Shown here piece after piece: positions 12,276 to 44,962 of a stretch of DNA of 44,962 bases. Source of the stretch: Deltaproteobacteria bacterium (GTDB lineage: Bacteria; Desulfobacterota; DSM-4660; Desulfatiglandales; HGW-15). Within the stretch, counting starts at the first letter, position 1; each line of letters opens with the position of its first letter. The DNA lies in contig JAFGDM010000061.1 in the NCBI GenBank assembly GCA_016932115.1, positions 1-44,962 on the forward strand, in the 5' to 3' direction. The position numbers were made by a program, and so were the translations under genes. The notes under the pieces are model-generated. The model ran no database searches, was not told the DNA's origin, and saw nothing but the letters and a program-made list of their open reading frames with translations.

Positions 12276-12370
12276 CCTTTGCGTTTTCGACCGGATTATA
12301 TAAGGATCATGATCCAGGTGCCGGCCATTCCCTAGATGGATCTCCAAGGGAAGACCCGGCTAATCGAACG

Positions 12371-22913: not shown

Positions 22914-23732
22914 ATGCTCAAAAATGATAAAATTTATCAAAGCTATCACCTGGTCCACTATGAAGATGGTGCTATGAACAGGTATAAGCAGGATTTTGTG
23001 CGCGAGGAACCTCTGCTGATACACGTGGAAGATAGCCCCTATTTTGTTGTTATGCGGACTCCGGGCGATGAGATTGCGCACGCGGCGGGTTTCTGCCTTT
23101 CGGAGGGATTGGTTGAATGCCCTGAGGATATCGCCTCGATCGGTTTATGCGGCGATTTTGATGAAAACAGCGTAATGGTTAAATTAAATGACGAGAGAAA
23201 AAAGCTGGTCTCCGAAAAGCTTGAGAGAAAGGGTTTTTTCAGCCAGATAGGTTGTGGAATATGCGGAAGGGAGATAATAGAAGATGTAACCCAAAATCTA
23301 AGGGTTTTTACCGAAGAATCCGAGATAAGTTACAGCCAGGTGCTCGAGTGTGTGAAAAAATTTTTCCTGCACCAGGAATACTACGTTAGAACACGGGGAA
23401 CGCATGCTGTCATGCTTTTTGACTCGAGACTGCAAATAATTGTAAAATCGGAGGATGTGGGACGCCACAATGCAATGGACAAGTCGATCGGAGCTCTATT
23501 CCTGGCGAATAGGATGTCCGATATCTATTTGGCAGTACTTTCTTCCAGGATCAGTTTCGAGATGATCCAGAAGGCGGCACGTGCGGGAATTCCTATCTTG
23601 ATAAGCCTATCGAACCCCACTTCAATGGCTGTGGAAATGGGATTGAAACTCAACATGACACTGGTTTGTTTGGACAAGAAATCAGGGTTTATCGTACCAT
23701 GCGGAGAAAAGCGGGTCAGAGCGAAAACATGA
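22914..23732 (+). CDS. fdhD: FdhD-type sulfurtransferase for Mo/W-cofactor sulfuration
   Basis: A 272-residue protein of the FdhD family: GDEIAHAAGFCLSEGLV, SQIGCGICGREI (the two conserved Cys are residues 114 and 117) and KSEDVGRHNAMDKSIG are its hallmark motifs. FdhD carries sulfur from IscS to the bis-MGD cofactor of formate dehydrogenase. No formate dehydrogenase gene is present in this window. I chose ATG 22914, so the family-conserved YHLVHYEDG segment is kept; ATG 22974 would cut it. Confidence 0.87.
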   Translation: MLKNDKIYQSYHLVHYEDGAMNRYKQDFVREEPLLIHVEDSPYFVVMRTPGDEIAHAAGFCLSEGLVECPEDIASIGLCGDFDENSVMVKLNDERKKLVSEKLERKGFFSQIGCGICGREIIEDVTQNLRVFTEESEISYSQVLECVKKFFLHQEYYVRTRGTHAVMLFDSRLQIIVKSEDVGRHNAMDKSIGALFLANRMSDIYLAVLSSRISFEMIQKAARAGIPILISLSNPTSMAVEMGLKLNMTLVCLDKKSGFIVPCGEKRVRAKT

Positions 23733-23963: not shown

Positions 23964-24722
23964 ATGCGCCCCTCATTCAAAAGAGTGCCAGCCATAGAAA
24001 AGTGTTTTGCCGTGCTGGATTTGCTTGCCAAATCGAAAGAACCTGTGGGTATCAGTGACATATCCGGAAAGCTGGATTTGAACAAGAGCACGGTGTTCCG
24101 AATCGTGCATACGCTCATGGACCTCAATATCCTTGAAAATCAACGTGACGGCAAATTTGTCTTCGGCACACACTTTTATATCCTTGGAAACATGGCGGGA
24201 AAGCGCTCAAAACTCATACAAACAGTGCATCCTTATTTGGAGAGGATCAACGAAAAAACCAAGCTTTCCGCCTTCTTAGGGTTGCGTTCAGACCGGCAGG
24301 CCATTCTTATCGATAAAGTGGATTCGGCCTACGGCATTAAATTGTCTTCTGAAATCGGCATCCGGATGCCCGCTTTGGCCGGTGCGGGGATCAAAGCGAT
24401 GCTTTCACAGCTCTCGGATGAAGAAATCGATGAAATCCTCGCTCGAACCGAGCTCAAGAGATACACGCCGCAATCCATTGTTGACAAAGCGGCCTACAAA
24501 GAGGAAATCCTTGAGGTTCGCAGACAAGGCGTTGCCTTTGACAGAGAAGAGTACATAGAGGGGATGGTCGCTTATGCAGCACCCATTAATGCAACCGGAA
24601 AAGACCTTCAGGCCGCCATATGGGCTGTCGGCCTGACGCGCCAGGTGCCCAGGGCTTCCATCCCGGAGTTGACACAGTTACTGAAAGGGATCTCCAAAGA
24701 GATTAATTATCGTTTAGTGTAA
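23964..24722 (+). CDS. IclR-family transcriptional regulator
   Basis: The 252-residue protein has an N-terminal winged helix-turn-helix (about 10-65, ISDISGKLDLNKSTVFRIVH) and a C-terminal effector-binding domain (about 80-250) with family blocks KLSAFLGLRSDRQAILIDKV, GAGIKAMLSQL and GVAFDREEYIEGMVAYAAPI. IclR proteins sense small carboxylates, many of them aromatic. Located directly upstream of Bam module 1 in the same orientation, it is the natural candidate regulator of the benzoyl-CoA reductase genes, but the ligand and sign of control are unknown. The GTTATG start has no strong ribosome binding site. Confidence 0.88.
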   Translation: MRPSFKRVPAIEKCFAVLDLLAKSKEPVGISDISGKLDLNKSTVFRIVHTLMDLNILENQRDGKFVFGTHFYILGNMAGKRSKLIQTVHPYLERINEKTKLSAFLGLRSDRQAILIDKVDSAYGIKLSSEIGIRMPALAGAGIKAMLSQLSDEEIDEILARTELKRYTPQSIVDKAAYKEEILEVRRQGVAFDREEYIEGMVAYAAPINATGKDLQAAIWAVGLTRQVPRASIPELTQLLKGISKEINYRLV

Positions 24723-28822: not shown

Positions 28823-31800
28823 GTGGAAAGAGAACCAGTGGAAGAGCAGTTTTTTAGCAGCCCCGAGGGCGGTAATTTTGGAGATGTTATGGTTGTGGGA
28901 GGCGGGATCAGCGGCATTCAAGCGGCTCTTGATCTTGCCACTGCGGAATTCAAGGTTTATCTGGTTGAAAAGGCGCCGACCATTGGCGGGAAGATGGCCC
29001 AACTGGACAAGACCTTTCCCACCAACGATTGCTCCATGTGCATTGAATCCCCCAAGTTCATTGAATGTGCCAGGCATCCCAATATAGAGATCCTGACCTA
29101 TACCGAAGTCGACACCGTAAAAGGGGAAGCGGGGAACTTCAAGGTCAAGCTGATCAAAAAACCCAGATACATTAAGGAGGACAAATGCACAGGCTGCACG
29201 ACTTGTGTTGAATTCTGCCCGGTCAGGGTTCGGGATCCATATAATCAAGACCTGTCTTTGAACAAAGCCATTCATATCTACTTCTCCCAAGCTGTTCCAC
29301 TCGTCACTTATATAGACCCTGAAAGCTGCCTTTATCTTCAAGGCGAGAAATGTTCGATTTGCGCCGGAGTCTGTAAGAATAAAGCCATCGATCTTCATCA
29401 AGAGGAAGAGGAAATAGAAGTAGAGGTGGGGGCGATCATTCTGGCGCCCGGCTACGAGGTATTCGACCCTAAGTTGAAGGGTGACTATGGCTACGGGAAC
29501 TTTGAGAACGTGGTAACAAGTCTTGAGTTTGAAAGGCTTTTGTGTGCCACCGGGCCGTTCGAAGGTGAGATCTTGCGGCCTTCCGACAAGAAACATCCAC
29601 ATAACATAGCTTGGATTCACTGCGTCGGCTCCAGACGGGTGACCCCGGGCGATAACAGCTATTGTTCAGCGGTGTGCTGCACCTATACTCAAAAACAGGT
29701 GATTTTGACAAAGGACCATGACGCCGAGGCAGAGTGTACCGTATTCCATAATGACATCAGGTCCTATGGTAAGGATTTCGAGCGATTCTACCAGAGAGCG
29801 GAGAATTTACCCGGGGTTCGATTTATAAGGAGCTATGTGTCCATAGGAAGAGAGGTCAAGGAGAGCAAAAATTTAACGATAAAATATTCTACTCCGAAGG
29901 ATGGAGTAAAAGAAGAGGAATTCGACCTGGTGGTCCTGTCTGTCGGCTTGAACCCTCCCGCTGATTTTAAGAGCTTGGCAAACAAGTTCGGCATTGAACT
30001 TGATGCTCATGGATTCTGCAAGACCAATCCACTGAATGCCATGGAGACCTCTCGCCGGGGAATTTTTGTAAGCGGAGCGTTTCAGGGTCCTTTAGATATT
30101 CCTGAGTCGGTTGTGACTGCCAGCGGGGCCGGTTCTCTTTGTGGCCAAATCCTTGGTTACCGGCGGGGGAAGCTGGACAAAGAAAGAGAATATCCACCGG
30201 AAAGGACTGTATCAGGAGAGGAACCCAGGGTGGGGGTTTTTGTGTGCCATTGTGGGGCAAATATCGGAAGGGTGGTCAACGTCCCCTCGGTTGTTGAATA
30301 TGCTTCCACCTTGGACAATGTCGTCCACGCCCAGGAGAGCATCTTTGCGTGTTCTACGGACAATGCCCAGCAAATCGCGGACACGATCCGTGAAAAAAGA
30401 CTCAACCGTGTGGTTGTGGCTGCCTGTACGCCTAGGACCCATGAGCCGCTGTTCCGGGACACACTTCGTGAAGGGGGAATCAATCCCTATTTCTTTGAAA
30501 TGGCCAATATTCGGGAACAATGTTCCTGGGTTCACTCCAAAGAAAAGGAAGATGCCACAAGGAAGGCAAAGGAAATCGTGTGCATGTCGGTTGCCAGAAG
30601 CGCGCTCTTGGAGCCTTTACAGGAATTCGAGTTGCCGGTCGACAAGCGGGCATTGGTTGTAGGAGGAGGTTTGGCCGGCATGACCGGTGCTATGAGCCTT
30701 GCTGAGCAGGGATTTGAGGTTTACCTGGTGGAAAAAGATACAAACCTGGGAGGGACGGCACGAAGAATCTATTACACCTTGGAAGGGATGGATGTTCAAG
30801 CTTATTTGCGTGATGTGATCCGGAAGGTTTATCATCATCCCTCCATTCATGTTGTTACAGATGCGACTATCACCGAGGCTTCCGGTTATGTGGGCAATTT
30901 CGTAACCAAGGTGAAGTCCGGGAGAACGGCCAAGGAGATACACCACGGAGTAACCATCATTGCTACCGGCGCTGAAGAATATAAACCGACGGAATATCTT
31001 TATGGGAAAGAGGACGGGGTATTGACTCAGTTGGAGTTGGAGGAGAAGATCAATAAAAGAGAAGAAAAATTGATCAGCTCAAAGACTGTGGTGATGATCC
31101 AGTGTGTAGGCTGCAGACAGCAAGACCGAAACTACTGCAGCCGGGTCTGCTGCAGCCAGGCTATCAAGAACGCCCTGAAACTCAAAGAGATCAACCCTCA
31201 TATGGACCTATACGTCCTCTTCAGGGACATGAGAACGTACGGGTTCAAAGAGGACTATTACCGCGAAGCGTCGGAGAAGGATGTCAAATTCATCCGCTAT
31301 GAGCCGGATGACAAACCCCAGGTAGAAGCGGTTGAGGAGGAAGGTCGCCGCGTTCTAAGGGTTACCGTGACCGACGACATTTTAGGGAAGAAGCTTCAAA
31401 TAGACGCTGACGCCGTCGCTCTGGCGGCCGCCGTTATTCCGTCGGCAGGAACTCAGGAAATATCCCGGTTGTTCAAGGTCGCTTTGAATCCCGATGGTTT
31501 CTTCCAGGAAGCGCACGTAAAACTAAGACCTGTTGACTTTGCTGCGGAAGGCGTTTTCCTTTGTGGGACGGCTCATTATCCCAAGCATATATCGGAGACG
31601 ATCAGCCAAGCATACGGAGCTGCCGGCCGGGCTGTAACGATTCTCACGAAAGATTCAGTCATAGCTTCCGGTGCTATTTGCGAGGTTAATGAGAGTGACT
31701 GTGTATCCTGCGGGGCATGTATTTCAGTTTGTACTTATGGTGCTATAGAATTTGTTGATACACCACGAGGCAAAAAAGCCAGGGTCAACCCTGTTCTCTG

Positions 31801-31951
31801 TAAGGGAGACGGCCTCTGTAATTCAAGATGTCCGACAGGGGCTATTTCACTGAAGCACTTTACTGATGAAGAGGTCTTCTGCGAAATCGACGCGGCGCTT
31901 CACAGCCCTGTGGAATTTCCAGCAATAAACAAAGTCGGCATTGCCGATTGA
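28823..31951 (+). CDS. bamE: BamE-like HdrA-type flavin and iron-sulfur subunit, module 1 (Cys form)
   Basis: The 1,042-residue protein starts at GTG. The N-terminal part (about 20-460) is HdrA-like: dinucleotide site [31 protein letters not shown] and ferredoxin motifs [12 protein letters not shown] and KCSICAGVCKN. A second HdrA-like half (about 466-1042) opens with [18 protein letters not shown], has a second FAD site (VVGGGLAGMTGAMS) and ends in CVSCGACISVCT and [12 protein letters not shown] clusters. HdrA is the FAD bifurcation site in heterodisulfide reductase complexes, so BamE is the presumed bifurcating subunit. Here the CSMC motif is all cysteine, unlike the module 2 copy. Confidence 0.88.
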   Translation: MEREPVEEQFFSSPEGGNFGDVMVVGGGISGIQAALDLATAEFKVYLVEKAPTIGGKMAQLDKTFPTNDCSMCIESPKFIECARHPNIEILTYTEVDTVKGEAGNFKVKLIKKPRYIKEDKCTGCTTCVEFCPVRVRDPYNQDLSLNKAIHIYFSQAVPLVTYIDPESCLYLQGEKCSICAGVCKNKAIDLHQEEEEIEVEVGAIILAPGYEVFDPKLKGDYGYGNFENVVTSLEFERLLCATGPFEGEILRPSDKKHPHNIAWIHCVGSRRVTPGDNSYCSAVCCTYTQKQVILTKDHDAEAECTVFHNDIRSYGKDFERFYQRAENLPGVRFIRSYVSIGREVKESKNLTIKYSTPKDGVKEEEFDLVVLSVGLNPPADFKSLANKFGIELDAHGFCKTNPLNAMETSRRGIFVSGAFQGPLDIPESVVTASGAGSLCGQILGYRRGKLDKEREYPPERTVSGEEPRVGVFVCHCGANIGRVVNVPSVVEYASTLDNVVHAQESIFACSTDNAQQIADTIREKRLNRVVVAACTPRTHEPLFRDTLREGGINPYFFEMANIREQCSWVHSKEKEDATRKAKEIVCMSVARSALLEPLQEFELPVDKRALVVGGGLAGMTGAMSLAEQGFEVYLVEKDTNLGGTARRIYYTLEGMDVQAYLRDVIRKVYHHPSIHVVTDATITEASGYVGNFVTKVKSGRTAKEIHHGVTIIATGAEEYKPTEYLYGKEDGVLTQLELEEKINKREEKLISSKTVVMIQCVGCRQQDRNYCSRVCCSQAIKNALKLKEINPHMDLYVLFRDMRTYGFKEDYYREASEKDVKFIRYEPDDKPQVEAVEEEGRRVLRVTVTDDILGKKLQIDADAVALAAAVIPSAGTQEISRLFKVALNPDGFFQEAHVKLRPVDFAAEGVFLCGTAHYPKHISETISQAYGAAGRAVTILTKDSVIASGAICEVNESDCVSCGACISVCTYGAIEFVDTPRGKKARVNPVLCKGDGLCNSRCPTGAISLKHFTDEEVFCEIDAALHSPVEFPAINKVGIAD

Positions 31952-31965: not shown

Positions 31966-32721
31966 ATGGGTGCAGGGGTTGTTTTTAAACCAAGGATCTT
32001 AGGTTTTCTATGCAATTGGTGAGGATACTCGGCTGCTGACCTGGCTGGAGTTTCCAGACTGCAATATACGACTGAAATCAAGCTGATCCGCCTCATGTGC
32101 ACCGGCAGAGTGGATTTGGCGTTCATACTTCGAGCTTTCTCAAATGGAGCAGACGGGGTGTTGGTTGTTGGTTGTTGGCCCGGCGAATGCCATTATCTTA
32201 CTGAGGGAAATTACGGTGCATTGAGCATGACTCATCTGTGTAGAAAATTACTGGATTACATAGGGGTGAACCCCGAGAGATTGGGGCTTGAATGGGTGTC
32301 AGCCTCCGAGGGAAGCCGTTTCGCGGAAGTCGTGAATGACTTTGCGAAAAAGGTAAAGGACTTGGGGCCTTTCGGCAACGCCGAAAATGGATTAAAGATG
32401 AAACTTGAAGCAGTCGACAATTTACTCCCCTACATTAAGCTGGTCGAAAGGGAGAAACTAAGAGTGCGGTTTAAGACAGAAGAAGAATATAACGAATTCT
32501 TCACGAGTGATGAGATAGATAGGATATTTCAAGAAGTAATTGTAAATAAATTGGAAATTAGTCGGATCATGAGACTCCTGCGAGAAAAGCCCCTCTCGAC
32601 CGGGGAAATTTCCGGGCTTTTGGGCGTAACCCCATCTGAAGCATCAAAGCATCTTGGCAGTTTAGCAAGACAAGGATTAATAAGGTTTGACGAAAGCCTG
32701 AAGCGTTTTGTTCCTGCCTAG
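31966..32721 (+). CDS. bamF: BamF-like MvhD-type selenoprotein with C-terminal winged helix, module 1
   Basis: The full reading frame is 251 residues if TGA at 32020-32022 is read as selenocysteine (residue 19, motif CNWU; MvhD proteins have CNWC here). After it come AADLAGVSRLQYTTEIKLIRL, MCTGRVD and GCWPGECHYLTEGNY, typical of the MvhD/FrhD [2Fe-2S] subunit. ATG 31966 has GAGGAGAGAG upstream and follows bamE1 by 14 bases. The C-terminal segment (about 192-251, EISGLLGVTPSEASKHLGSL) is a winged-helix-like domain. MvhD transfers electrons from hydrogenase or Nuo-like units to HdrA. Gene callers usually start this gene falsely at 32095. Confidence 0.88.
32020..32022 (+). other. In-frame TGA, selenocysteine codon of bamF1
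   Basis: TGA follows TGC AAT TGG, giving C-N-W-U. The reading frame is open and conserved on both sides, and the family has Cys at this position. A hairpin with a G-first loop lies 22 bases downstream (32045-32057). BamF selenoproteins have been proposed in Geobacter and Desulfococcus benzoate metabolism. Confidence 0.9.
32045..32057 (+). promoter_or_regulatory. SECIS-like hairpin of bamF1
   Basis: CTGGA-GTT-TCCAG forms a 5-bp stem with a 3-base loop beginning with G, 22 bases after the Sec codon, within the window used by bacterial SelB. The same hairpin is conserved in the bamF2 copy (43282-43294), although third codon positions elsewhere vary. Confidence 0.65.
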
Positions 32722-32775
32722 AGCGAGAGAATTGGAACCAAATTAGGGGAGATGAAAAGGAATAGGACAGCGGCT

Positions 32776-33228
32776 ATGGATAAGGGCAAAATCGATAAGA
32801 TTATAGACAAATATGAGGGCGACGCCGGTTCACTCATTCAGGCATTACTGGAGATTCAGAGCGAAAATCGCTGGCTTCCCAAAGAGGTTTTGGCGAAGGT
32901 AAGCAAGAAATTGAACGTGCCCTTGAGCCGCATACAGCACATCGTGACATTTTATAAGGCCTTTAGTTTAGTTCCTAAAGGGCGTCACGAAGTTCACGTG
33001 TGCACGGGCACGGCCTGTCATGTTCGCGGAGCGCCGCGTCTTCTCGACTCGGTTAAAGACCTGATTGGAATAAGTCCCGGGGAGACGGACATGGATTTAA
33101 AGTATAGCCTGGAGACTGTGAACTGCGTCGGCTGCTGCGCTTTAGGACCGGTGATGGTAATCGATGGTGAATATTACGGAAAGATGTCACCGGCCAAGTC
33201 TGAAGATGTGTTGAAAAACTATGATTAA
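32776..33228 (+). CDS. bamG: BamG-like NuoE-type [2Fe-2S] subunit
   Basis: A 150-residue thioredoxin-like ferredoxin homologous to NuoE/HoxE: helical N-terminus (SLIQALLEIQSENRWLPKEV), LSRIQHIVTFYKAFSLVPKG, and cluster ligands VCTGTACHVRGA and NCVGCCALGPV. I prefer ATG 32776 (AGGACAG upstream) to ATG 32752, which touches its own AGGGGAG. It partners with BamH in the NADH or ferredoxin-linked electron entry module. Only module 1 has it. Confidence 0.85.
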   Translation: MDKGKIDKIIDKYEGDAGSLIQALLEIQSENRWLPKEVLAKVSKKLNVPLSRIQHIVTFYKAFSLVPKGRHEVHVCTGTACHVRGAPRLLDSVKDLIGISPGETDMDLKYSLETVNCVGCCALGPVMVIDGEYYGKMSPAKSEDVLKNYD

Positions 33229-33237
33229 GGGAAAATT

Positions 33238-35175
33238 ATGGCAAGGATAAATTCACCTGCTGAATTGGAAGAATTCAGGAAGGACATCATATCAAAGAAA
33301 GATCCAAATAGGCCGTGCATTGCTGTATGCACCGGAACAGGTTGCCTCGCTCTGGGAGCAGCAAATGTGGTTGCCGCCTTCAAAGAGGAGATTGAAAAAC
33401 AGAAACTGCAAAGTAAAGTGGATGTCGTAGATATCAGGGAAACAGGCTGCCCTGGTTTCTGCGAACGAGGGCCTATAATTGTAATTTACCCTGAGGAGAT
33501 ATGTTATCTTCAGGTGCAGCCCGGCGATGCCAAGGAGATCATTTTTGAGACTATACTTGGCAAGAAGATCATTGATAGGTTGCTTTACGTCGATCTCACC
33601 GCCGACAAGAAGGTAGTCCATGAATCCGAGATACCGTTCTATAAGAATCAGAAACGCCTCCTTCTCGGCAATAATATTAAAATCGATCCGAAAAGCATTG
33701 ATGACTATCTTGCACTCGGCGGGTATTCCGCATTGGTTAAAGCCCTTTTTCATCTGACCCCGGAGCAAGTTTTGGAGCTTGTGAAAAATTCGAAATTGAG
33801 AGGGAGGGGAGGAGCCGGATTTCTTACGGGGGTAAAATGGGAATTTGCTCGCAGAAGTCCTGATAAGACAAAGTATGTGATCGTCAACGCCGATGAGGGA
33901 GACCCGGGGGCATTTATGGATAGGGCTCTACTTGAGGGGAATCCCCACGCAGTTCTTGAAGGACTCATTATTGGGGCTTATGCCATCGGATCTCATGAAG
34001 GTTATTTCTATGTTCGTCAGGAATATCCTTTAGCTGTGAAGAATATCGGGATTGCTATCAAACAGGCTGAGGAATATGGTTTTGTTGGTAAAAATATTCT
34101 AGGGTCCGGCTTTGATTTCACAATTAAAGTGCATCAGGGCGCCGGCGCTTTCGTTTGCGGTGAGGAAACGGCTCTTCTAATGTCTCTCGAAGGCAAACCG
34201 GGCGAGCCAAGGCCGAGGCCGCCATATCCGGCCGTGAAAGGGCTCTGGGGCAAACCGACGAACATCAATAATGTGGAAACCTGGGCTAATGTTCCGTTGA
34301 TTATTAAGAATGGGTCTGATTTCCTGACCTCCATAGGCACTGAGGGAAGCAAAGGCACCAAGATCTTTTCATTGGTCGGCAAGGTGAACAATACCGGCCT
34401 CGTGGAAGTGCCGATGGGCATCACCCTGAGAGATATTATCTACAAGGTAGGAGGCGGCATCCCCGGAGGCAAGAAGTTCAAGGCCGTACAGACAGGTGGT
34501 CCATCGGGCGGATGTATCCCTGAAGAATTCTTGGATATACAGGTTGATTTTGACGAACTCGCCAAGGTCGGCGCAATTATGGGTTCAGGCGGCATGATAG
34601 TAATGGATGAAGATACCTGTATGGTTGATGTCGCCAGGTACTTTCTTAATTTCCTAACCGATGAGTCATGCGGCAAATGTACCCCATGCCGTGAAGGCAT
34701 CAGGCAGATGCTTAAAATTCTTACTAATATAAGTAAGGGAAGGGGAAGAGAAGGCGACATTGAGCTTTTGGAAGAGCTAGCCCGGACAACCGGGGATGCT
34801 TCACTTTGTGCCTTAGGTCGCACTGCCCCTAACCCGGTTCTAAGCACGATACGCTACTTCAGAGACGAGTATGAGGCCCATATCAAGGACAAGAGATGCC
34901 CGGCTTATGTCTGCAAGGAGCTGATCTCATACTATATTGATCCGGATAAGTGCCAGGCCTGCATGATTTGCCTCAGGAAATGCCCTGCTGAGGCGATCGA
35001 TGGCGGTAAGAACCGGATCCACATAATTGACCAAAACAAATGCACAAAGTGCGGGACCTGCTTTGAGGTTTGTCCCTCTCGTTTTGGTGCGGTGACCAGG
35101 CTCTCCGGTGAGCCCGTTCCGCCTCCTTTCCCTGAAGAAAAAAGAACTATTGTCAGAAAGAGTAAAGACAAATGA
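33238..35175 (+). CDS. bamH: BamH-like NuoF-type flavin subunit with C-terminal ferredoxin domain
   Basis: The 645-residue protein has three parts. An N-terminal [2Fe-2S] thioredoxin-like domain (CTGTGCLALGA, RETGCPGFCERG) precedes the NuoF FMN/NADH core with GRGGAGFLTGVKWEFAR, NADEGDPGAFMDR, GEETALLMSLEGKPG and CGKCTPCREG. The C-terminal two-cluster ferredoxin domain (about 562-645) has CQACMICLRKCP and CTKCGTCFEVCP. It resembles HydB/NfnB-type bifurcation partners, so it may link NAD(H) to BamE. The domain at 562-645 is closely repeated at the end of bamF2. The stop overlaps bamI (ATGA). Confidence 0.9.
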   Translation: MARINSPAELEEFRKDIISKKDPNRPCIAVCTGTGCLALGAANVVAAFKEEIEKQKLQSKVDVVDIRETGCPGFCERGPIIVIYPEEICYLQVQPGDAKEIIFETILGKKIIDRLLYVDLTADKKVVHESEIPFYKNQKRLLLGNNIKIDPKSIDDYLALGGYSALVKALFHLTPEQVLELVKNSKLRGRGGAGFLTGVKWEFARRSPDKTKYVIVNADEGDPGAFMDRALLEGNPHAVLEGLIIGAYAIGSHEGYFYVRQEYPLAVKNIGIAIKQAEEYGFVGKNILGSGFDFTIKVHQGAGAFVCGEETALLMSLEGKPGEPRPRPPYPAVKGLWGKPTNINNVETWANVPLIIKNGSDFLTSIGTEGSKGTKIFSLVGKVNNTGLVEVPMGITLRDIIYKVGGGIPGGKKFKAVQTGGPSGGCIPEEFLDIQVDFDELAKVGAIMGSGGMIVMDEDTCMVDVARYFLNFLTDESCGKCTPCREGIRQMLKILTNISKGRGREGDIELLEELARTTGDASLCALGRTAPNPVLSTIRYFRDEYEAHIKDKRCPAYVCKELISYYIDPDKCQACMICLRKCPAEAIDGGKNRIHIIDQNKCTKCGTCFEVCPSRFGAVTRLSGEPVPPPFPEEKRTIVRKSKDK

Positions 35176-35807
35176 ACGAAATGCTTTTACAGATTGATGG
35201 AAAAGAAGTTAAGGCAAGCGAAGGAATGACCATTCTGGAGGCTGCACGAAGTGTCGGGATATCGATTCCCACACTTTGTCACCACGAGAAATTAAACCCT
35301 TATGGGGCTTGCCGCATTTGCACTGTGGAAGTAGAAGCCGGCGGGAGGACAAATTTTGTTCCTGCCTGCATTTACCCGGCGGCAAGTGGTTTGGTGGTAA
35401 GAACCAGATCTGAGAAAATAGATAAAACCCGCAAAATGATCTTGGAACTGATGCTCTCTCACGCTCCGGATGCCCCGGCATTAAAAGATTTGGCTAAAGA
35501 ATACGGTGCAGACAGAGACCGTTTTGAAAAGGAACCGTCATTTTGCATTCTTTGTGGTCTATGTGTAAGATACTGTGCTGAAGTCAAGAAGAAGAGTGCT
35601 GTCGGATTTATTGACAGAGGACCAAATCGGGAGATAAATTTCATTCCCGAGATCGCATCCAAGGAGTGCTGGAACTGCAAGGAGTGCTTTCCACTCTGCC
35701 CAACATCGTATCTACAGACAGCTTACCATTTAACGGAAGCGCTCGCGTTTCCCTCATCGTCTTTCCTTCGAACTCGCCTCAGAGGGACCCCCATGCTTGG
35801 TGCTTAA
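35172..35807 (+). CDS. bamI: BamI-like NuoG-type iron-sulfur subunit with repeat-derived C-terminus
   Basis: The 211-residue protein resembles the N-terminus of NuoG/HydA: a [2Fe-2S] domain (IPTLCHHEKLNPYGACRICT) followed by CILCGLCVRYC and CWNCKECFPLCP clusters. It starts 4 bases before the bamH stop (ATGA), implying translational coupling. The last residues (about 193-211, AFPSSSFLRTRLRGTPMLGA) do not look like the family and are encoded by repeat copy C, whose sequence supplies the stop codon. In other Bam clusters this subunit completes the G-H-I electron entry module. Confidence 0.85.
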   Translation: MNEMLLQIDGKEVKASEGMTILEAARSVGISIPTLCHHEKLNPYGACRICTVEVEAGGRTNFVPACIYPAASGLVVRTRSEKIDKTRKMILELMLSHAPDAPALKDLAKEYGADRDRFEKEPSFCILCGLCVRYCAEVKKKSAVGFIDRGPNREINFIPEIASKECWNCKECFPLCPTSYLQTAYHLTEALAFPSSSFLRTRLRGTPMLGA

Positions 35808-36150: not shown

Positions 36151-38160
36151 ATGAGGTACGCAGAGACAGGGTTTAATTTAGAGATTGATCTGTCCCGGGG
36201 AAGCATTGAAAGGGTGGAGACTGACTCAAGATTAACCGAGCTTCATCTTGGGGGGCTGGGCACCAACAGCAAGATATTGTGGGACAGGGTTCCACCTGAG
36301 ACCGAGCCCTTTTCTCCTGATAATTTGTTGATCTTCGGGACGGGTCTCTTGTGCGGCACACCGGCCCCCGGTGCGAATCGGACCATTATTACAACCTATT
36401 CTCCTCAGACCTTGTACATGGGCTATTCCATGATGGGAGGGTTTTTGGCGCCGGAACTGAAGTATGCCGGGTATGACAAAGTGATTTTTCGCGGCAAGTC
36501 TCCCAACATGGTTTACCTGTGGATCAACAATGACAAGGTGGAAATACGGGATGCCTCTCATCTCCGGGGCAAAGGCGCTGTCGAAACTTCGGAGATCATT
36601 CGACGGGAGTTGAAGGACCCCAAAGCCCAGGTCGCTGCCATCGGACTGGCCGGTGAAAACCGGGTGTACATGGCCAGCATAGAGCAAGGCCGGTCCAGCG
36701 CCAGCCGATTGGGCCTGGGCGCCGTCATGGGCGACAAAGGGCTAAAGGCCGTTGCCGTTCGCGGAACGAAGGACATTAACATCGCCCGCCCGGCTGAATT
36801 CATGCAGCTCTGCAACGAGGTGCTACAGTACATCAAAGTCCGGGCCCCCAACCTTATCCCTGAAGTCATGCCGATTTTGGCCGGGCTTGGGTCTCCCCAG
36901 GAGATGGCCCATTACGATGAGAAGTGGCACACCGAGAATTTCATGTGGGGGAATGCCCGGGTCCGGAGAAAAGAATTCTGGAACGACGAGATCGAAAAGA
37001 TGTGGAAGAACACGCTGGAGAGCGTTCGGACTCGGCTTATTAGCTGTTACAACTGCCCGATGAAGTGCGGGGCCATTATTTCCGTCCCCGGAATTTCCAC
37101 CTACATGATGAAATGCTTCACGAAATTGACCTACGCCATGGCGGCCTTTGCCGAGGACTCCGAATTTGGTTTTAAGATCGCGCAGCAGGCCACGGAATAT
37201 GGGGTGGATGGGTTCTCTATGCCGCAAACCATGGCTTTTGCCTTTGAGCTAAAAGAGGCCGGGATCTTGACGGACGCGGACTTTGAAGGATGCCCTACCG
37301 ACAAGGAGGGAAGATTTTATTGGTTGCTGGACCGTATTGTCCGACGGGAAGGAATAGGGGATGTGCTGGCCGACGGCACCTATTGGGCGGCCAAGCAGAT
37401 CGGCAAGGGCGCCGAAGAATATGCTCACAACAATATCAAGAAACACGAACAGCTCCCTCTCAAGCTGGGCATGCTGAACCCTATCTATTTCCTGATGTAT
37501 TGTACCGGGGAGAAGAGTAACATCACACAAATCGAAGGGAATTTCCCCCAAGCGCCTTTTTCCACATTGGAGCTCAAAGAAGCCTTTGTGAAAGACTGGG
37601 TCCAAGCTCCGAATGACAGGTTTAAGCAGTATGTTCTGGACTGGGAATTCCGAGGGGAGCACTCCATGCCCTTCTACCCGCCGCCCGAAGCCTGTTGTGA
37701 AATCGTGGAATGGCAGGAAAAGATGCACCATATCGATGACGCGCTCGGGTTGTGCGCCGGCTTGTCGTCATTTCCCCTGAAACCTCCCTACCATATCCAC
37801 AATCTGCCCCTTTTTATCTCAGCGGCGACAGGTATGGACATGGATGAAGACGGGCTGACGCACATCTTCAACAGAAACCGGAACCTGGTGAGAGCCATCA
37901 ATGTGAGAAGAGGTTTGAGACGGGCCGATGAGAAGCCGCCGGAGGACCATTGGAAGAAGAGATTTCCCGAGCTTGAGACGAAGCTCCTTGATACCTATTA
38001 CGCGTTCAAAGGATGGAATCAGGACGGCATTCCTACCAAGGAGTCATTGCAGGCCCTGGGGTTGGACTATGTCGCTGAGGACTTCCTCAAGAGAGGAATC
38101 TTGACAAACGAGGACAGGGCTTTTTCCAACGAAACTGCGTCGGAAACAGAGGAGAAATAA
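36151..38160 (+). CDS. bamB: BamB-like tungsten (AOR-family) subunit, module 2
   Basis: The 669-residue AOR-family protein is paralogous to the module 1 copy: LGGLGTNSKILWDRVPPETE, GTPAPGANRTII and [4Fe-4S] ligands CYNCPMKCGA plus DALGLCAG. Glu251, His254, His260 and Cys322 are present; as I recall, Glu251, His260 and Cys322 match by number the residues around tungsten in Geobacter BamB (the other His there is 255), so this copy looks like the canonical benzoyl-CoA reductase catalytic subunit. The ATG has GGAAGAGGAG upstream. It opens a second operon from its own promoter. Confidence 0.88.
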   Translation: MRYAETGFNLEIDLSRGSIERVETDSRLTELHLGGLGTNSKILWDRVPPETEPFSPDNLLIFGTGLLCGTPAPGANRTIITTYSPQTLYMGYSMMGGFLAPELKYAGYDKVIFRGKSPNMVYLWINNDKVEIRDASHLRGKGAVETSEIIRRELKDPKAQVAAIGLAGENRVYMASIEQGRSSASRLGLGAVMGDKGLKAVAVRGTKDINIARPAEFMQLCNEVLQYIKVRAPNLIPEVMPILAGLGSPQEMAHYDEKWHTENFMWGNARVRRKEFWNDEIEKMWKNTLESVRTRLISCYNCPMKCGAIISVPGISTYMMKCFTKLTYAMAAFAEDSEFGFKIAQQATEYGVDGFSMPQTMAFAFELKEAGILTDADFEGCPTDKEGRFYWLLDRIVRREGIGDVLADGTYWAAKQIGKGAEEYAHNNIKKHEQLPLKLGMLNPIYFLMYCTGEKSNITQIEGNFPQAPFSTLELKEAFVKDWVQAPNDRFKQYVLDWEFRGEHSMPFYPPPEACCEIVEWQEKMHHIDDALGLCAGLSSFPLKPPYHIHNLPLFISAATGMDMDEDGLTHIFNRNRNLVRAINVRRGLRRADEKPPEDHWKKRFPELETKLLDTYYAFKGWNQDGIPTKESLQALGLDYVAEDFLKRGILTNEDRAFSNETASETEEK

Positions 38161-38181
38161 GGTGAAGAGGTGGTAGCCGTC

Positions 38182-38730
38182 ATGGGTGAGAAGAAAAAGA
38201 AGATCGTCAAAACAATCAAAATTGATGTCGATAAATGCAACGGTTGCCGGGCCTGTGAGATGATCTGCTCAGCCTTTCATGCTCAACCGAAATACAGCAG
38301 CAATAATCCCGCAAGGTCTCGCATTCGGGTGATTCACGATCCTCTCCGAGACGTCTATGTCCCCGTATACGCCGGCGAGTATGCGAAGGCCGAATGCATG
38401 GGCAGAGACAAATACGTGATCGACGGAAAGGAGTACGACGAGTGTGCCTTTTGCAGGGCCTCCTGCCCGTCCAGAGATATTTTCAAAGAGCCCGATTCAG
38501 GGCTTCCTCTCAAATGCGATATGTGCGAAGACGATCCCCGGCAGGAGACGCCCTTGTGTGTTCAGTGGTGCTTGAATGATGCCCTGATTTACGAAGAGAG
38601 AGAAGAGGAAATCGAAGAAGAAGTGAAACAGGAGGACATGGAGATCGGATTGGAGTCCATGATCGACAAGTATGGATTGGACAAGATCATGGAGAGCGTG
38701 GCTCGGATTTCCCTTTCAAAAAAAGCTTAA
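38182..38730 (+). CDS. bamC: BamC-like iron-sulfur subunit, module 2
   Basis: A 182-residue protein close to the module 1 BamC. The cysteine pattern is preserved: KCNGCRACEMICSAFH, CAFCRASCPSRD and CDMCEDDPRQETPLCVQWC, for about three [4Fe-4S] clusters. I prefer ATG 38182 with AAGAGG about 12 bases upstream; GTG 38170 is an alternative that adds four residues. It is expected to bind BamB2 and deliver electrons to the W site. It lies 21 bases after bamB2. Confidence 0.86.
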   Translation: MGEKKKKIVKTIKIDVDKCNGCRACEMICSAFHAQPKYSSNNPARSRIRVIHDPLRDVYVPVYAGEYAKAECMGRDKYVIDGKEYDECAFCRASCPSRDIFKEPDSGLPLKCDMCEDDPRQETPLCVQWCLNDALIYEEREEEIEEEVKQEDMEIGLESMIDKYGLDKIMESVARISLSKKA

Positions 38731-38765: not shown

Positions 38766-39917
38766 GTGGAGATTGTTGTCCCCTACAAAGAGATCGTTGA
38801 CGTCATCAAGGCGAGCGGCGGAGACGCCTTCAAAAGATGCTTTCAGTGCGGACTGTGCGATGTGGTCTGCCCGTGGAACAGGGTCAGGACCTTTAGCATG
38901 CGCAGGCTGGTCCGGGAGGCAACCTTCGGGTTGACGGACATTGAAAGTGAAGATATGTGGCTTTGCACGACCTGCGGGAGATGCCCCCAGCAGTGCCCCC
39001 GGGACGTGAAACAAATCGAGTCCGGAGTGGCCTTGCGCAGGATTGCCACGGAATACGGCGTTTTCCCCAAATCAGTGACACCGATCCGAACGGTTCGGGG
39101 AAGCCTGGTGGGGGAAGGGAACACCTTGGGGGAGGAACGGGCCAAGCGGGGGGATTGGGCCAAAGGCCTTTCGGTGAACGAGTTTAGCGAGGGTATGGAA
39201 ATTTTGTATTTTCCCGGCTGCTATCCCAGCTATGACCCAAGGTCAAAGAAGCTTGCGGTGGCCACGGCCACGATCCTGAACAAGGCGGGGGTGGATTTTG
39301 GGATTCTGGGCACCAAGGAGAACTGCTGCGGGGAGAGCATCCGCAAGACGGGGGATGAGGAAGTCTTCAAGCGTTTGGCCAGGGAGAATATCAAGACCTT
39401 TGTGGATCACGGGGTGAAGAAGATTTTGGTCAGTTCCCCTCATTGTTACCACACGTTCAAGAACGAGTATCCGGATTTTATGGTGAACTTTGAGGTGATT
39501 CACATGTCCCAGTTTTTGTTTGGGCTTATGAAAGAGGGTAAACTGGAGATCGGCAAGGAATATGAGAAGACGGTGACTTATCATGACCCCTGCTACCTGG
39601 GTCGTCACAACGGCATTTTGGAGGAGCCCCGGGAAATTCTGAAGAGAGTACCCGGGCTTACGTTGAACGAGATGCCCGACTGCCGGATGGACAGTCTGTG
39701 TTGCGGAGGGGGAGGAGGCAGGGTTTGGATGGAGACCCAGAAGGGGCAGAGATTTTCCGACCTCAGGCTGGAGCAAGCCGTAGGGGTCGGGGCCGAGGTG
39801 CTGGTGACGGCGTGCCCGTATTGCATAACCATGTTTGAGGATAGCCGGTTGACCCTGAACCTCACGGAGAAGATCAAAGTGAAGGATCTTACGGAAATCA
39901 TCGCGGAGGTGATTTAG
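38766..39917 (+). CDS. bamD: BamD-like HdrD/GlpC-type iron-sulfur subunit, module 2
   Basis: The 383-residue product has the same length and motifs as BamD1: CFQCGLCDVVCP, CTTCGRCPQQCP and two CCG domains (ENCCGESIRKTG; LCCGGGGGRVW). It starts at GTG. Identity to BamD1 is about 85% by eye, and even the intergenic stretch before bamE (CATCCCAT-GGACAAAGGCGGA) is conserved between copies, so the two D-E junctions are recent or conversion-linked duplicates. Its role is electron transfer between BamE2 and BamBC2. Confidence 0.87.
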   Translation: MEIVVPYKEIVDVIKASGGDAFKRCFQCGLCDVVCPWNRVRTFSMRRLVREATFGLTDIESEDMWLCTTCGRCPQQCPRDVKQIESGVALRRIATEYGVFPKSVTPIRTVRGSLVGEGNTLGEERAKRGDWAKGLSVNEFSEGMEILYFPGCYPSYDPRSKKLAVATATILNKAGVDFGILGTKENCCGESIRKTGDEEVFKRLARENIKTFVDHGVKKILVSSPHCYHTFKNEYPDFMVNFEVIHMSQFLFGLMKEGKLEIGKEYEKTVTYHDPCYLGRHNGILEEPREILKRVPGLTLNEMPDCRMDSLCCGGGGGRVWMETQKGQRFSDLRLEQAVGVGAEVLVTACPYCITMFEDSRLTLNLTEKIKVKDLTEIIAEVI

Positions 39918-39950: not shown

Positions 39951-42900
39951 GTGGAAAAAGAACTCATCGAACAGTTTCGTAAGAGTGTCTCGGACAAGGA
40001 TTTTGGAGACGTCATGGTGGTGGGGGGAGGGATCAGCGGGATTCAAGCCTCCCTGGACCTGGCCACAGCCGGCTTCAAGGTTTACCTGGTGGAGAAAGCC
40101 CCGAGCATCGGCGGCCGCATGGCGCAGCTGGACAAAACCTTTCCCACCAATGACTGCTCCATGTGAATCCTCGCCCCTAAACTGGTCGAGGTCGGCCGGC
40201 ACCCCAACATCGAAGTTCTGACCTATACGGAAGTTCACCGCGTCGAAGGAGCGGTGGGTGACTTCAACGTGACGCTGATTAAAAAGCCTAGGTATATTCT
40301 GGAGGAAAAGTGCACGGGTTGTACGACCTGTGTTGAATATTGCCCTGCCAAATACCCGGATGAGTACAATCAGGAGATATCGAAGAACAAAGCGGTCCAC
40401 ATCTACTTCGCTCAAGCCATTCCACTGATCGCCTACATTGATGAAAGCTGTCTGTATCTCAAAGAGAACAAATGTCGGATTTGCGAAGGGGTCTGCAAGA
40501 ATAACGCCATCGACCTGAAACAAACGCCGAAGAAAAGAGAAATTACCGTAGGCGCAATCCTCCTGGCGCCCGGCTTTGAGCCCTTTGATCCGAAGACCAA
40601 GGAAGAATATCACTACGGGGAGTTCGCGAATGTGGTCACCAGTATGGACTATGAGCGACTGTTGTGCTCCACAGGACCATACTCAGGGGAGATCCTGCGC
40701 GGTTCCGACATGAAGCATCCCCACAAGGTCGCCTGGATTCAATGCGTGGGCTCCAGGCGGGTCACTCCCGGTGAAAACAGCTATTGTTCGGCTGTGTGCT
40801 GCACCTATACCCAGAAACAGGTCATTCTGACAAAAGATCATCATGCAGAGGCCGAATGTACCGTCTTTCACAACGACATTCGGTCCTACGGGAAGGATTT
40901 TGAGCGCTATTACGAAAGGACGGAACAACTTCCGGGCGTGCGCTTTATCCGAAGCTACGCCTCCATTGTGAGAGAGGACCCGAACACCAAGAATGTCACG
41001 GTACGTTATTCCACCTTTGACGAGGGGGTCAAAGAGGAAGCATTCGATATGGTGGTCCTTTCGGTCGGGTTGAATCCGCCCGTCGATGCTAAGGACGTGG
41101 CGGAAAAATTCGGCATCCAGCTCGATCCGAACAATTTCTGCAAGCTGAACCCCGTCAATCCCATGGAGAGCAACAGGCCCGGAATCTATGTGAGCGGTGC
41201 CTTTCAGGGTCCCATTGATATTCCGGAGTCGGTTTTCAGCGCCAGCGGCGCAGGCTCCCAAATCGGCCAACTCCTTGACTATCGGCGAGGCAATCTTGCC
41301 GAGGAAAGGGTCTATCCAAGTGAAAGGGATGTTTCCAAGGAGGAGCCGAGAATAGGGGTCTTTGTGTGTCACTGCGGGGCCAATATCGGAAGGATCGTCA
41401 ATGTTCCAGAAACAGTCGAGTACTGCAAAACCCTGCCCAGTGTCGTTTACGCTCAGGAACAGCTGTTTTCGTGTGCCACCAACTCCGCCAGAGAAATCAC
41501 GGATGTTACAAAGGAAAAAGGGCTGAATCGAGTGGTCATTGCCGCCTGCTCCCCCAGGACTCTTGAACCGCTGTTCCGCGACACGGTTCGGGAGGCGGGA
41601 ATCAATCAGTATTTCTGTGAGATGGCAAATATCCGGGAGCACGATTCCTGGGTCCACTCCAAAGAAAAGGAAGAGGCCACGGAGAAAGCCAAGGACATCA
41701 TTCGCATGTCCGTGGCCCGAGCCTGTCATTTGGAGCCGCTGCAAGAGTTTGATCTCCCGGTCAACAAAGCGGCGCTTGTAGTAGGCGGAGGGGTGGCAGG
41801 CATGAACTGCGCTCTCTCTATAGCCAACCAGGGGCATGAGGTTCATTTGGTGGAAAAGGCTAAAGAGCTTGGCGGCATGGTAAGAAGGGTCTATTCCACC
41901 CTGGAGGGGCTGGACGTGCAGGCCTATTTACACGATTTGATCGCAAAGGTTTATGGGCACCCGCTCATCCATGTGTATCATGATGCGACCATCACAGAGG
42001 CTACAGGGTATGTCGGCAACTTCGTGACCGTGGTGAAGTCTGAAACGGGAGTCGCCGAGATCAAACACGGGGCAAGCGTCATTACCATTGGAGCTGATCT
42101 CTACACGCCGACCGAATATCTATACGGACAAGATGAACGAGTCATGACCCATCTGGATCTGGAAGGCCGAATCGCCGAGAGGGATGAAAAGATCGTAAAC
42201 GCAAAAAGCCTTGTGATGATTCATTGCGTGGGCTGTAGAAATGAAGACAGAAACTACTGCAGCCGGATTTGTTGCAGCCAGTCGGTAAAGAACGCTTTGA
42301 GGCTCAAAGAGATCAACCCTCAGATGGATATCACCATTCTTTTCAGGGATATGAGGACCTATGGGTTCAAAGAGGATTTTTACCGGGAAGCCTCCAACAA
42401 AGATGTCAAATTCATTCGCTATGAACCTCAAGAGCCGCCTCAGGTGGAAGCGGGCGAGTCGGACGAGGGTCGGCCCGTACTGAAGGTTACTGCGCCGGAC
42501 TATGTTATGGGGAAAAAGCTGGTCATTGATGCTGATATCCTTGCTTTGGCGGCCGCCGTCATTCCCTCTGCGGCAACGAATGAAGTGGCCGCACTGTTCA
42601 AGGTCACGTTGAGCCCGGACGGCTTTTTCAAAGAAGCCCACGTTAAACTCAGACCGGTTGAGTTTGGTACGGAAGGAGTGTATCTGTGCGGACTCGCTCA
42701 CTACCCCAAGTTCATGCAGGAAACGATCAACCAGGCTTATGGAGCGGCAGGCCGGGTTTTAACCCTTCTTTCTCATGACACGGTCGTCGCCTCCGGATCT
42801 GTGGCCCAGGTCAACGAGAGCCGGTGTATAGGGTGCGGGGCCTGTGTTTCCGCGTGTACTTATGGGGCTTTGGACCTCCGAGACACGAAACAGGGGAAAA

Positions 42901-43076
42901 AAGCCATGGTGAACCCCGTTCTGTGCAAAGGAGACGGTCTCTGCAATTCAAAGTGTCCCACGGGGGCGATTCAGTTGAAGCATTATACCGATCAAGAGCT
43001 TTTGAGTGAAATTGATGCCATGGCAACGGAGGAAGAGATCTTGCCGGAGATGGATGCTGCGGTTGGAGATGTGTAG
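39951..43076 (+). CDS. bamE: BamE-like HdrA-type flavin subunit, selenocysteine form, module 2
   Basis: Reading TGA at 40164-40166 as Sec gives a 1,041-residue protein colinear with BamE1. Residues 1-71 ([24 protein letters not shown]) join without gap to [16 protein letters not shown], so the HdrA motif CSMC becomes CSMU at residue 72. The remainder has [23 protein letters not shown], the second HdrA block ([18 protein letters not shown]), a second FAD site ([16 protein letters not shown]) and C-terminal clusters [12 protein letters not shown] and [13 protein letters not shown] hairpin with GGTC in the loop follows the TGA. HdrA selenoproteins are known in methanococci and some deltaproteobacteria. 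Not a pseudogene: the frame is intact over 3.1 kb. Confidence 0.88.
40164..40166 (+). other. In-frame TGA, selenocysteine codon of bamE2
   Basis: The context is GAC TGC TCC ATG TGA ATC CTC GCC; the module 1 paralogue has TGC in this place. Homology continues uninterrupted on both sides in the same frame. The nearby hairpin at 40182-40199 resembles a bacterial SECIS. Confidence 0.88.
40182..40199 (+). promoter_or_regulatory. SECIS-like hairpin of bamE2
   Basis: CTGGTC (40182-40187) pairs with GGCCGG (40194-40199) over 6 bp (two G-U) around the loop GAGGTC, which contains the GGU motif known from the Escherichia coli fdhF SECIS. The stem begins 15 bases after the Sec codon. An alternative stem CCTCG/CGAGG (40169-40173 with 40187-40191) is also possible. 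Confidence 0.7.
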
Positions 43077-43202: not shown

Positions 43203-44042
43203 ATGAGTGCAAGACCTAAATTCAAGCCTAAATTGTTGGGTTTCGTGTGCCATTGGTGAGCGTACGGGGCTGCTGATCTGGCTGGAGTTTCCAGACTTCA
43301 ATACACGACTGAAATGAGGCTGATCCGCGTCATGTGCTCCGGCAGAGTGGATATGTCCTTTGTCCTCAGAGCCTTTTTGAACGGAATCGATGGGGTCTTC
43401 ATTGGGGCCTGCCGCTTGAATGAATGCAATTATGTGACTCAGGGAAATTATCATGCCCTCAACATGGTGCTTTTGTCGAAAAGAGTCCTCGAACACATGG
43501 GGCTGAACCCGGAACGATTAAAAATCGAATTCATGTCGGCCGCCGACGCCAACATTTTTGCGGAAGGCGTCAATGCTTTTGTCAAGAAGGTGAAATCGTT
43601 GGGGCCCCTTGGGGAAGGCGAGGGAATCAATCGACATGAACTCAAGTCCAGGCTTGTAGAGATCTCTAAACTCGTCCCCTACTTTAAGATGGCTAACCAG
43701 GAGAAACTGGCCTCCCACCTCAAAACACCGGAGGAGTACGATGGGCTATTCACGAAAGAGGAGATCGACAGGCTCTTTACTGAAATGGTCTCCTACTATA
43801 TCGATCCGGAGAAGTGCCAGGCCTGTATGACTTGCCTGAGAAGGTGTCCTGTAGAGGCGATTGTCGGGGGCAAGAACAGGATCCACGTCATTGACCAGGA
43901 TAAATGCATCAAATGCGGAACCTGTTTTGAAGCCTGCCCTCCTCGCTTCGGCGCGGTGAAAAAAATTTCCGGCGAGCCTGTTCCGGCCCCTATTCCCGAA
44001 GAAAAAAGAACGATAGTGAGAAAGAGTAAAGAAGCGAGTTAA
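43203..44042 (+). CDS. bamF: BamF-like MvhD-type selenoprotein fused to a BamH-type ferredoxin domain, module 2
   Basis: With TGA 43257-43259 as Sec (residue 19, motif CHWU), the product has 279 residues. Residues 1 to about 196 are MvhD-like and colinear with BamF1 (AADLAGVSRLQYTTEMRLIRV, MCSGRVD, ACRLNECNYVTQGNY). From about 197 to the end it is a two-cluster ferredoxin domain (CQACMTCLRRCP, CIKCGTCFEACP) nearly matching the C-terminus of BamH (its residues 562-645) down to the final RTIVRKSK. The winged helix of BamF1 is absent. AGAAGAGGGAAAAACTAG supplies the ribosome binding site. The 3' end overlaps the convergent DUF362 gene by 4 bases. Confidence 0.88.
43257..43259 (+). other. In-frame TGA, selenocysteine codon of bamF2
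   Basis: TGC CAT TGG TGA gives C-H-W-U, the same place as CNWU in BamF1. Sequence upstream (PKFKPKLLGFVCHW) and downstream continues the MvhD family in frame. The SECIS-like hairpin lies at 43282-43294. Confidence 0.9.
43282..43294 (+). promoter_or_regulatory. SECIS-like hairpin of bamF2
   Basis: CTGGA-GTT-TCCAG, identical to the bamF1 hairpin and 22 bases after the Sec codon. The loop starts with G, as required for SelB recognition in bacterial SECIS elements. Confidence 0.65.
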
Positions 44043-44962
44043 TCCTCCTTCAGGACCTCCAAGAGCATTTTTTCGAGTTTGTCTTCGGCGTTCTCGTCTG
44101 CATACCGGGGTCTTTGAACGTCAGGGAAGAAGCTGAAGAGGCCTTTCATAATCACTTCAGCATGGGGCGGACAGCCGGGCAGATGTTTTCCCATCCCTGC
44201 ATGGTGCTGCTGGCAGATGCCCATGAAGACGTTCGTCTCTTCCGGGTTTGGTGTCACGTCCGTGTCGGGCCCTAGAAATACATTCACCCTTTTTTCGAAG
44301 GGTCGATCAATGAGAAGTCTCTCAGGGTTTTTCGGATCAGGCCGTCTCAGTTTATGCAAAACATAGTGCAAATAGCCTCTGCAACCCCCACAGGCGCGGC
44401 CGTCATGAATTAGAAAGTTTTGCCCGCCGCTCACAACGACCTCCGCTTCTTTGAAGGCGTCCCTCACCTCCTCCACAGAGGCGCCGACGATGTGAATCTT
44501 CTCCGCCTCGATGGGCCCCAGTCCTTGCATATAGGCGAACATTACCGGAGGGGAAAGAGCAGGCTCGAAGCCCATGATCCTCATGGTCACGGCGTCAACG
44601 GCCACGGGATTGGTTCCGCCGATAAGCAGATTCATGGGTTTCGGCTTTCCGTAGACCGGCCCGAAATCCTCCTGAGCCGTGAGGCCGTCCACGATAACGA
44701 GATTTGATTTTACGAGATGATGGATATTGACTAGATTTTGCCAGAGCCCGAAGAAATGGCTCATATATTTCTCGATAGGAGGGACGGCACCCTGCAGGTT
44801 CTTGATGCTCAAAGATACGAGAGCGGCGAAATGGGTCTTCATGACCGGAAGGTTTATGATGACATCCGCCTGCTCCAAGGTGACCGGAATCTCTCGTGAG
44901 AGCATCCTTTTCCCGTTAGGGACCCTTTTTCTAATCAAACTGTCCGTGTTGAGGTCCACAAG
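44039..44962 (-). CDS. DUF362-family protein, 5' end outside the window
   Basis: A minus-strand frame of at least 307 residues, open to the right edge. ADVIINLPVMKTHFAALVSL, SIKNLQGAVPP and NLLIGGTNPVAVDAVTMRIMG are signature blocks of DUF362 proteins, whose biochemical role is poorly known. Near the C-terminus, HDGRACGGCRGYLHYVL and GICQQHHAGMGKHLPGCPPH carry paired cysteines that might bind a metal or cluster. In this family about 90 residues usually precede the KTH motif, so the start is probably outside; the GTG near the edge is unlikely. It is convergent with bamF2 and overlaps its stop codon (TTAA). Confidence 0.8.
   Translation of the reverse strand, partial: LVDLNTDSLIRKRVPNGKRMLSREIPVTLEQADVIINLPVMKTHFAALVSLSIKNLQGAVPPIEKYMSHFFGLWQNLVNIHHLVKSNLVIVDGLTAQEDFGPVYGKPKPMNLLIGGTNPVAVDAVTMRIMGFEPALSPPVMFAYMQGLGPIEAEKIHIVGASVEEVRDAFKEAEVVVSGGQNFLIHDGRACGGCRGYLHYVLHKLRRPDPKNPERLLIDRPFEKRVNVFLGPDTDVTPNPEETNVFMGICQQHHAGMGKHLPGCPPHAEVIMKGLFSFFPDVQRPRYADENAEDKLEKMLLEVLKED

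Follow-up and report, generated by a model that had tools for sequence, protein, structure and literature searches.

Organization of the bam locus

The window analysed, a stretch of 44,962 nucleotides that makes up positions 1 to 44,962 of contig JAFGDM010000061.1 (assembly GCA_016932115.1, Deltaproteobacteria bacterium), carries two modules of bam genes (Table 1). Module 2 comprises bamB2, bamC2, bamD2, bamE2 and bamF2, and lies directly downstream of the bamGHI genes of module 1. A DUF362 gene on the opposite strand (44039-44959, -) converges on bamF2, so that within the window the operon ends with bamF2. BamB2 keeps Cys322, E251, E257 and H260 of the solved BamB (4z3w), which we take to be key residues of that enzyme. 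Because of this closeness to the solved protein, module 2 is very probably a genuine core of a class II benzoyl-CoA reductase.

The BamB1 protein of module 1 (25089-27044) is only 51% identical to BamB2 and shows a deletion and a change of E257 to D close to the site of the solved BamB; the substrate of module 1 may be a different aryl-CoA. BamF1 is an enzyme subunit that ends in an ArsR/HTH-like domain, and the same tail is found in the HTH-type BamF proteins of other loci. Upstream of the bam modules are fdhD-like and IclR-type genes (22914-23732 and 23964-24722); according to excerpts of one report, fdhD is also found in a bam cluster of a benzene-degrading culture (PMC13101534).

Table 1. 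Features of bam modules 1 and 2 in the window, with the observations on which each assignment is based.
Feature	Position	Strand	Basis or remark
bamE1 (module 1), with Cys where BamE2 has Sec	28823..31951	+	TGC at 29039-29041
bamF1, module 1, MvhD head with Sec (CNWU) and ArsR-like HTH tail	31966..32721	+	Translation; Pfam
UGA for selenocysteine 19 of BamF1	32020..32022	+	Translation; alignment A2
Putative SECIS hairpin of bamF1	32045..32057	+	Alignment A2
bamG, bamH, bamI of module 1 (NuoE-like, NuoF-like, 2Fe-2S/4Fe-4S proteins)	32752..35807	+	Pfam, NCBIfam
bamB2, tungsten aryl-CoA reductase catalytic subunit, module 2	36151..38160	+	1127 bits to 4z3w BamB
bamC2, Fe-S electron transfer subunit	38170..38730	+	Pfam Fer4 motifs; 64% to BamC1
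bamD2, CCG-domain subunit	38766..39917	+	Pfam CCG; 84% to BamD1
bamE2 (HdrA-like), 1041 aa, Sec at residue 72	39951..43076	+	Translation; HdrA matches
UGA for selenocysteine 72 of BamE2	40164..40166	+	Aligned to Cys of 5odc_A; TGA in 52/65 aligned BamE/HdrA
Putative SECIS hairpin of bamE2 (7-pair stem)	40182..40199	+	Codon conservation and pairing
bamF2 (module 2), MvhD/FlpD head carrying Sec (CHWU), then a linker and a 2[4Fe-4S] tail at the C-terminus	43203..44042	+	279 aa
UGA for selenocysteine 19 of BamF2	43257..43259	+	In-frame; aligned to Cys of 5odc_D; TGA in 151/166 unique Bam-type BamF
Putative SECIS hairpin of bamF2 (CUGG-AGUUU-CCAG)	43282..43294	+	Synonymous codons frozen; pairing conserved
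2[4Fe-4S] tail of BamF2, residues 194-277	43782..44033	+	79% identity with the C-terminal 84 residues of BamH1

The in-frame UGA of bamF2 and its decoding

In translation the bamF2 frame runs from the ATG at 43203 to a TAA at 44040-44042, with TGA as codon 19; when this codon is read as U (...GFVCHWUAYGAADLAGVSR...) the frame contains no further stop. The sequence-only reading had counted it as the third UGA-selenocysteine codon among the bam genes read, and the codons of bamF1 and bamE2 bear out that count. The head of BamF2 matches Pfam FlpD (PF02662) at 151.9 bits, against a curated cut-off of 22.3, and is followed by two [4Fe-4S] (Fer4) motifs. It is an MvhD by sequence (5odc_D, 135 bits) and by fold (5odh_D, TM 0.93 on target, Foldseek with an AlphaFold2 model of mean pLDDT 89.9 built on an alignment of 52 sequences). 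Five positions of the head, C16, U19, C45, C70 and C75, do not vary among these 52 relatives (U shown as C), all of which had been picked for having the UGA. BamF2 U19 corresponds to Cys16 of 5odc chain D and BamE2 U72 to Cys197 of chain A (numbering counted by hand from the alignments), in agreement, for solved relatives, with the earlier statement that both selenocysteine sites of module 2 are Cys in the wider family.

TGA occupies the selenocysteine codon in 109/113 aligned BamF-like sequences of a first set. A wider set, in which the first was enlarged by searching 395 genomes from the phylum and by fetched stretches, contained 166 unique Bam-type BamF, of which 151 have TGA and 15 TGC or TGT; 14 further rows that scored below 205 bits or were incomplete were excluded. 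The query for BamF relatives began downstream of the UGA, so neither Sec nor Cys was favoured among the sequences recovered. Judged from these alignments, the conservation of UGA in BamF is more than chance.

Beyond the UGA, the bamF codons GCT GGA GTT TCC AGA are nearly frozen, though all have synonyms, and the mean synonymous entropy in the hairpin is 0.38 bit, compared with 1.28 for the remaining scored columns (Mann-Whitney p 2.3e-4; 101 sequences and 92 columns). The hairpin corresponds to columns 26-38 of alignment A2, and its final base, 43294, is where the sequence-only reading had placed the end of its interval. Its 4-pair stem is paired in 99.7% of cells (88 distinct sequences); covariation is thin: one pair, U-A, is G-C in 2 sequences and broken in 1. 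In bamE, the codons CTG GTC GAG GTC and CGG have an entropy of 0.06 versus 1.27 (51 sequences, 562 columns, p 6e-5), and the 7-pair stem is paired in 99.7% of cells, with one compensatory case and 18 U-G/U-A swaps (51 sequences). The codons that are otherwise frozen in the bamF hairpin drift in Cys BamF, and the conserved hairpin string is gone from Cys BamE. The folding energy of the hairpins was no better than that of shuffles, and there was no Rfam match at the gathering score. In the loop region of the bamF hairpin, GGA-GTT and GGC-GTG switch jointly at two synonymous sites; among the sequences listed, GGC and GTG each occur 12 times and always together (96 distinct 54-base bamF sequences).

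The genome encodes a single selA, and selB and tRNA-Sec are each represented by one match that passes the cut-off; this machinery, a UGA at the Cys site of homologues and a conserved intragenic hairpin are among the marks of a UGA-decoded bacterial selenoprotein. Decoding of the UGA at 43257 as selenocysteine via SelB, directed by the putative hairpin at 43282-43294, is strongly supported by conservation. A reassigned genetic code was also considered and was ruled out, since bamE1 in the same cluster terminates at a UGA (31949-31951).

Selenocysteine and cysteine states of BamE and BamF

The translations and the TGC of bamE1 confirm that module 2 has two selenocysteines (BamE2 and BamF2) and module 1 one (BamF1). 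It had been concluded from this difference that module 2 is unusually selenium-dependent, a view that the wider comparison does not support. Among 111 BamE/BamF pairs, 79 are Sec/Sec, 19 are Cys/Sec, module 1 of the window being one of these, 13 are Cys/Cys and none is Sec/Cys; since the added genomes come from one phylum and the 80 named loci are the best matches to the window's own BamF, these frequencies are not unbiased. Sec/Sec is the commonest state, and module 2 is therefore typical, while module 1 with its Cys BamE is less common; the idea of module 2 as an oddity was accordingly rejected. In these pairs, selenocysteine in both BamE and BamF is the usual state of the family, and the Sec codon alone is ordinary. 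In a BamE tree of 60 rows, built with the Sec column kept in, the Cys rows are eight BamE in one clade (support 98), BamE1 included, and one distant HdrA. No Cys BamF was found among the matches listed from the window's own genome (assembly about 95% complete), and module 1 does not provide a selenium-free reserve, because BamF1 itself contains selenocysteine.

In all 15 Cys BamF the residue after the site is also Cys (CxxCC), and in the 151 Sec BamF it is Ala (97), Gly (45) or Val (9) and never Cys. The MvhD proteins of solved structures and the Cys paralogues of the same genome have Ser, Thr or Ala at this next position. Of the 14 excluded rows, 13 have Cys at the site, followed by Cys (3), Ala (9) or Ser (1), and one is a UGA row with Gly; the 205-bit threshold between Bam-type BamF and other MvhD was chosen post hoc. 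A tree from which both sites were omitted requires three changes; supported branches impose at least two of these, and no row separates the two traits. Only two independent contrasts are fully supported, or three on the best tree, so that no sign test can reach 0.05. The distribution suggests a switch between Sec and Cys-Cys on two or three branches, and that a single thiol does not stand in for the selenol of BamF.

Two short BamF without an Fd or HTH tail, from two genomes of the same family (L154 and L155), have CxxCC and lie beside a Cys BamE. Three FlpD paralogues of the window's own genome (L002 1501-1869, L003 1501-1863 and L006 1501-1866) carry a UGA at the site of BamF2 Cys70 (G-U-HPGDC), unlike L008, where the UGA is at CxxU. 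Read in this way, Sec in the MvhD family occupies either of two Cys positions.

The ferredoxin-like tail of BamF2 and the absence of bamGHI

The next best match of the BamH1 tail in its own genome, after BamF2, is 45% identical. Downstream of bamF2 there is no bamGHI of its own, the sole set in the window being that of module 1, and we accordingly make no claim of an eight-subunit complex in the case of module 2. The same association recurs among bamE-bamF pairs with more than 700 nt behind bamF: bamF genes encoding a ferredoxin-like (Fd) tail had no bamG behind them in 41 of 42 cases, and those without such a tail had bamG behind in 9 of 12, counts for which the Fisher test treats loci as independent and ignores relatedness. 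The three misses in the latter group are a second pair that includes a non-Bam MvhD (L099), a locus at which the read ends early (L122) and L129. The single exception among the Fd-tail genes is L110, where an Fd-type and an HTH-type bamF occur in tandem and are followed by GHI. This locus (8998-13275, a Thermoleophilia MAG) has a UGA in both tandem bamF, bamGHI behind them and a Cys BamE. In a later set, bamG was found in 0/17 Fd-tail rows, and by manual count the only HTH row above 205 bits that lacked it was L192.

Among the genomes of the order with an Fd-tail BamF, G082 and G084 (incomplete drafts, 93% complete) gave no NuoF-like match at 1e-120, and in G024 and G040 the NuoF-like matches are only 56-59% identical. 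Named isolates with a BamF of this type are Sporotomaculum syntrophicum, Desulfocucumis palustris and Desulfospira joergensenii, of which D. joergensenii is not described as using benzoate (PMC4148979). On contigs with HTH-type bamF, BamH is mostly 69-100% identical, with 60% in G066. Clustering of downstream genes revealed no partner common to most Fd-tail bamF loci, and the Foldseek matches that reached the BamF2 tail were weak and of high rmsd only.

HTH-type BamF form one clade (support 100) inside the Fd-type ones, with weak backbone support. Recent copying of the BamH tail into BamF2 within the window was considered and rejected: 92/94 BamF tails separate from those of BamH, a split with support 93 on about 90 columns only.

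Proposed route of electron entry and alternative readings

In the proposed reading, BamF2 serves an HdrA-based core of the class II (tungsten) benzoyl-CoA reductase type, BamB2C2D2E2F2, as its MvhD-type subunit for electron entry. By homology with MvhD-HdrA, the [2Fe-2S] head of BamF2 would pass electrons to a flavin of BamE2, and the selenocysteine, which stands in place of one of the five invariant head Cys, probably ligates or tunes the [2Fe-2S] cluster. The 2[4Fe-4S] tail, which is common to the end of BamH, would replace the BamGHI arm, so that reduced ferredoxin would load BamF2 directly. We infer this takeover of the ferredoxin side of BamGHI, with direct ferredoxin entry, because bamF genes with the Fd tail lack bamG whereas those with the HTH tail are followed by bamGHI. 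Taken as a whole, the reading in which the UGA specifies selenocysteine, BamF2 is the electron-entry subunit of a class II core, its tail provides ferredoxin entry in place of BamGHI, and two selenocysteines are the usual state is the one we regard as likely.

Module 2 might instead have no entry arm of its own and share the BamGHI of module 1, the tail of BamF2 serving only to dock on BamH or to relay electrons to it. The module 1 bamGHI genes adjoin module 2 and might serve both modules, the BamF2 and BamH1 tails are alike, and at L110 both types of bamF precede one GHI set; but the lack of bamG behind nearly all Fd-tail bamF, and the two draft genomes that have an Fd-tail BamF and no NuoF-like match, argue against it, and we consider such sharing rather unlikely.

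A special selenium dependence of module 2, with the two modules switching according to selenium supply, appears improbable. It could draw on the two selenocysteines of module 2 versus one in module 1, and on the one precedent found, in another organism, Geotalea daltonii, for which excerpts of the source report that extra selenite raised the bamF1 transcript 11-fold and did not raise that of bamF2 (PMC13119186). Against this, Sec/Sec is the commonest state of the pairs, module 1 needs selenocysteine too, and BamB1, with its limited identity to BamB2, may not catalyse the same reaction.

That the UGA is a true stop or marks a broken gene, with a shorter protein made from 43314, is scarcely credible: a standard ORF of 242 aa does begin at the in-frame ATG there, but the UGA recurs at the same codon in relatives with frozen synonymous codons behind it, a Shine-Dalgarno-like AGAGG precedes the ATG at 43203 and nothing similar was seen upstream of 43314 (both judged by eye), and a protein begun at 43314 would be without two of the invariant Cys/Sec positions.

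Beyond direct ferredoxin entry into BamF2 itself, we put forward only tentatively the broader proposal that BamF2-type modules constitute a distinct, NADH-independent form of the class II enzyme, in which one ferredoxin tail on a Sec-bearing MvhD head stands for the three-subunit BamGHI arm, a Sec ligand of the [2Fe-2S] cluster gives way, on loss of selenium use, to two neighbouring Cys and not to a single one, and Sec BamE is never combined with Cys BamF.

Comparison with known systems

Class II reductases bring electrons to very low potential without ATP, and the route by which electrons enter is unsettled. If the proposed reading is true, a single ferredoxin tail would do duty for a whole NADH-type arm, giving a smaller complex that isolates the ferredoxin input, and the alternation between Sec and Cys-Cys would be a natural experiment on why anaerobes retain selenium in a protein with an iron-sulfur cluster. 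That class II reductases can contain selenium is already known. In the portions of the literature searched, neither a BamF with a ferredoxin tail, nor modules lacking GHI as a type, nor the exchange between Sec and Cys-Cys was found described, and an earlier description is possible.

The B-C-D-E-F order of module 2 is that of the class II BamBCDEFGHI systems of Geobacter metallireducens and Desulfococcus multivorans. The G. metallireducens BamF is listed with an HTH, as in BamF1 here, under the entry 'hydrogenase, delta subunit; HTH mo' (PMC1924859), whereas BamF2 ends in a ferredoxin tail and its gene is not followed by GHI. For D. multivorans, BamE is described in excerpts as having a UGA plus SECIS (PMC5109826).

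The MvhD/VhuD subunits of methanogen HdrABC (5odc_D, 8rvu_F and 7bkb_F) resemble BamF2 in head sequence, fold and the CxxC/U site, and CxxU forms of MvhD/VhuD and HdrA are tabulated in a 2026 review consulted in part (PMC13188914). As the consulted sections describe it, the [2Fe-2S] cluster of MvhD feeds the flavin of HdrA, and hydrogenase, Fdh or Elp modules dock on MvhD (PMC6019823; PMC12350162). Unlike BamF2, however, MvhD/VhuD have no Fe-S tail, and the partner of MvhD is a hydrogenase, Fdh or Elp. In Desulfobacterium autotrophicum, HdrA2-MvhD fusions and HdrA/MvhD selenoproteins place a Sec HdrA beside a Sec MvhD, as here, to judge from excerpts of the report (PMC2702500), but these selenoproteins are not tied to an aryl-CoA reductase, unlike those of module 2. 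Finally, the C-terminal 2[4Fe-4S] domains of the HydB/NuoF-type subunits found in bifurcating enzymes (HydABC, NfnABC and StnABC) are among the best matches to the BamF2 tail by sequence, and weak ones by fold; in those subunits the domain follows an FMN/NADH domain, whereas in BamF2 it is carried on an MvhD head.
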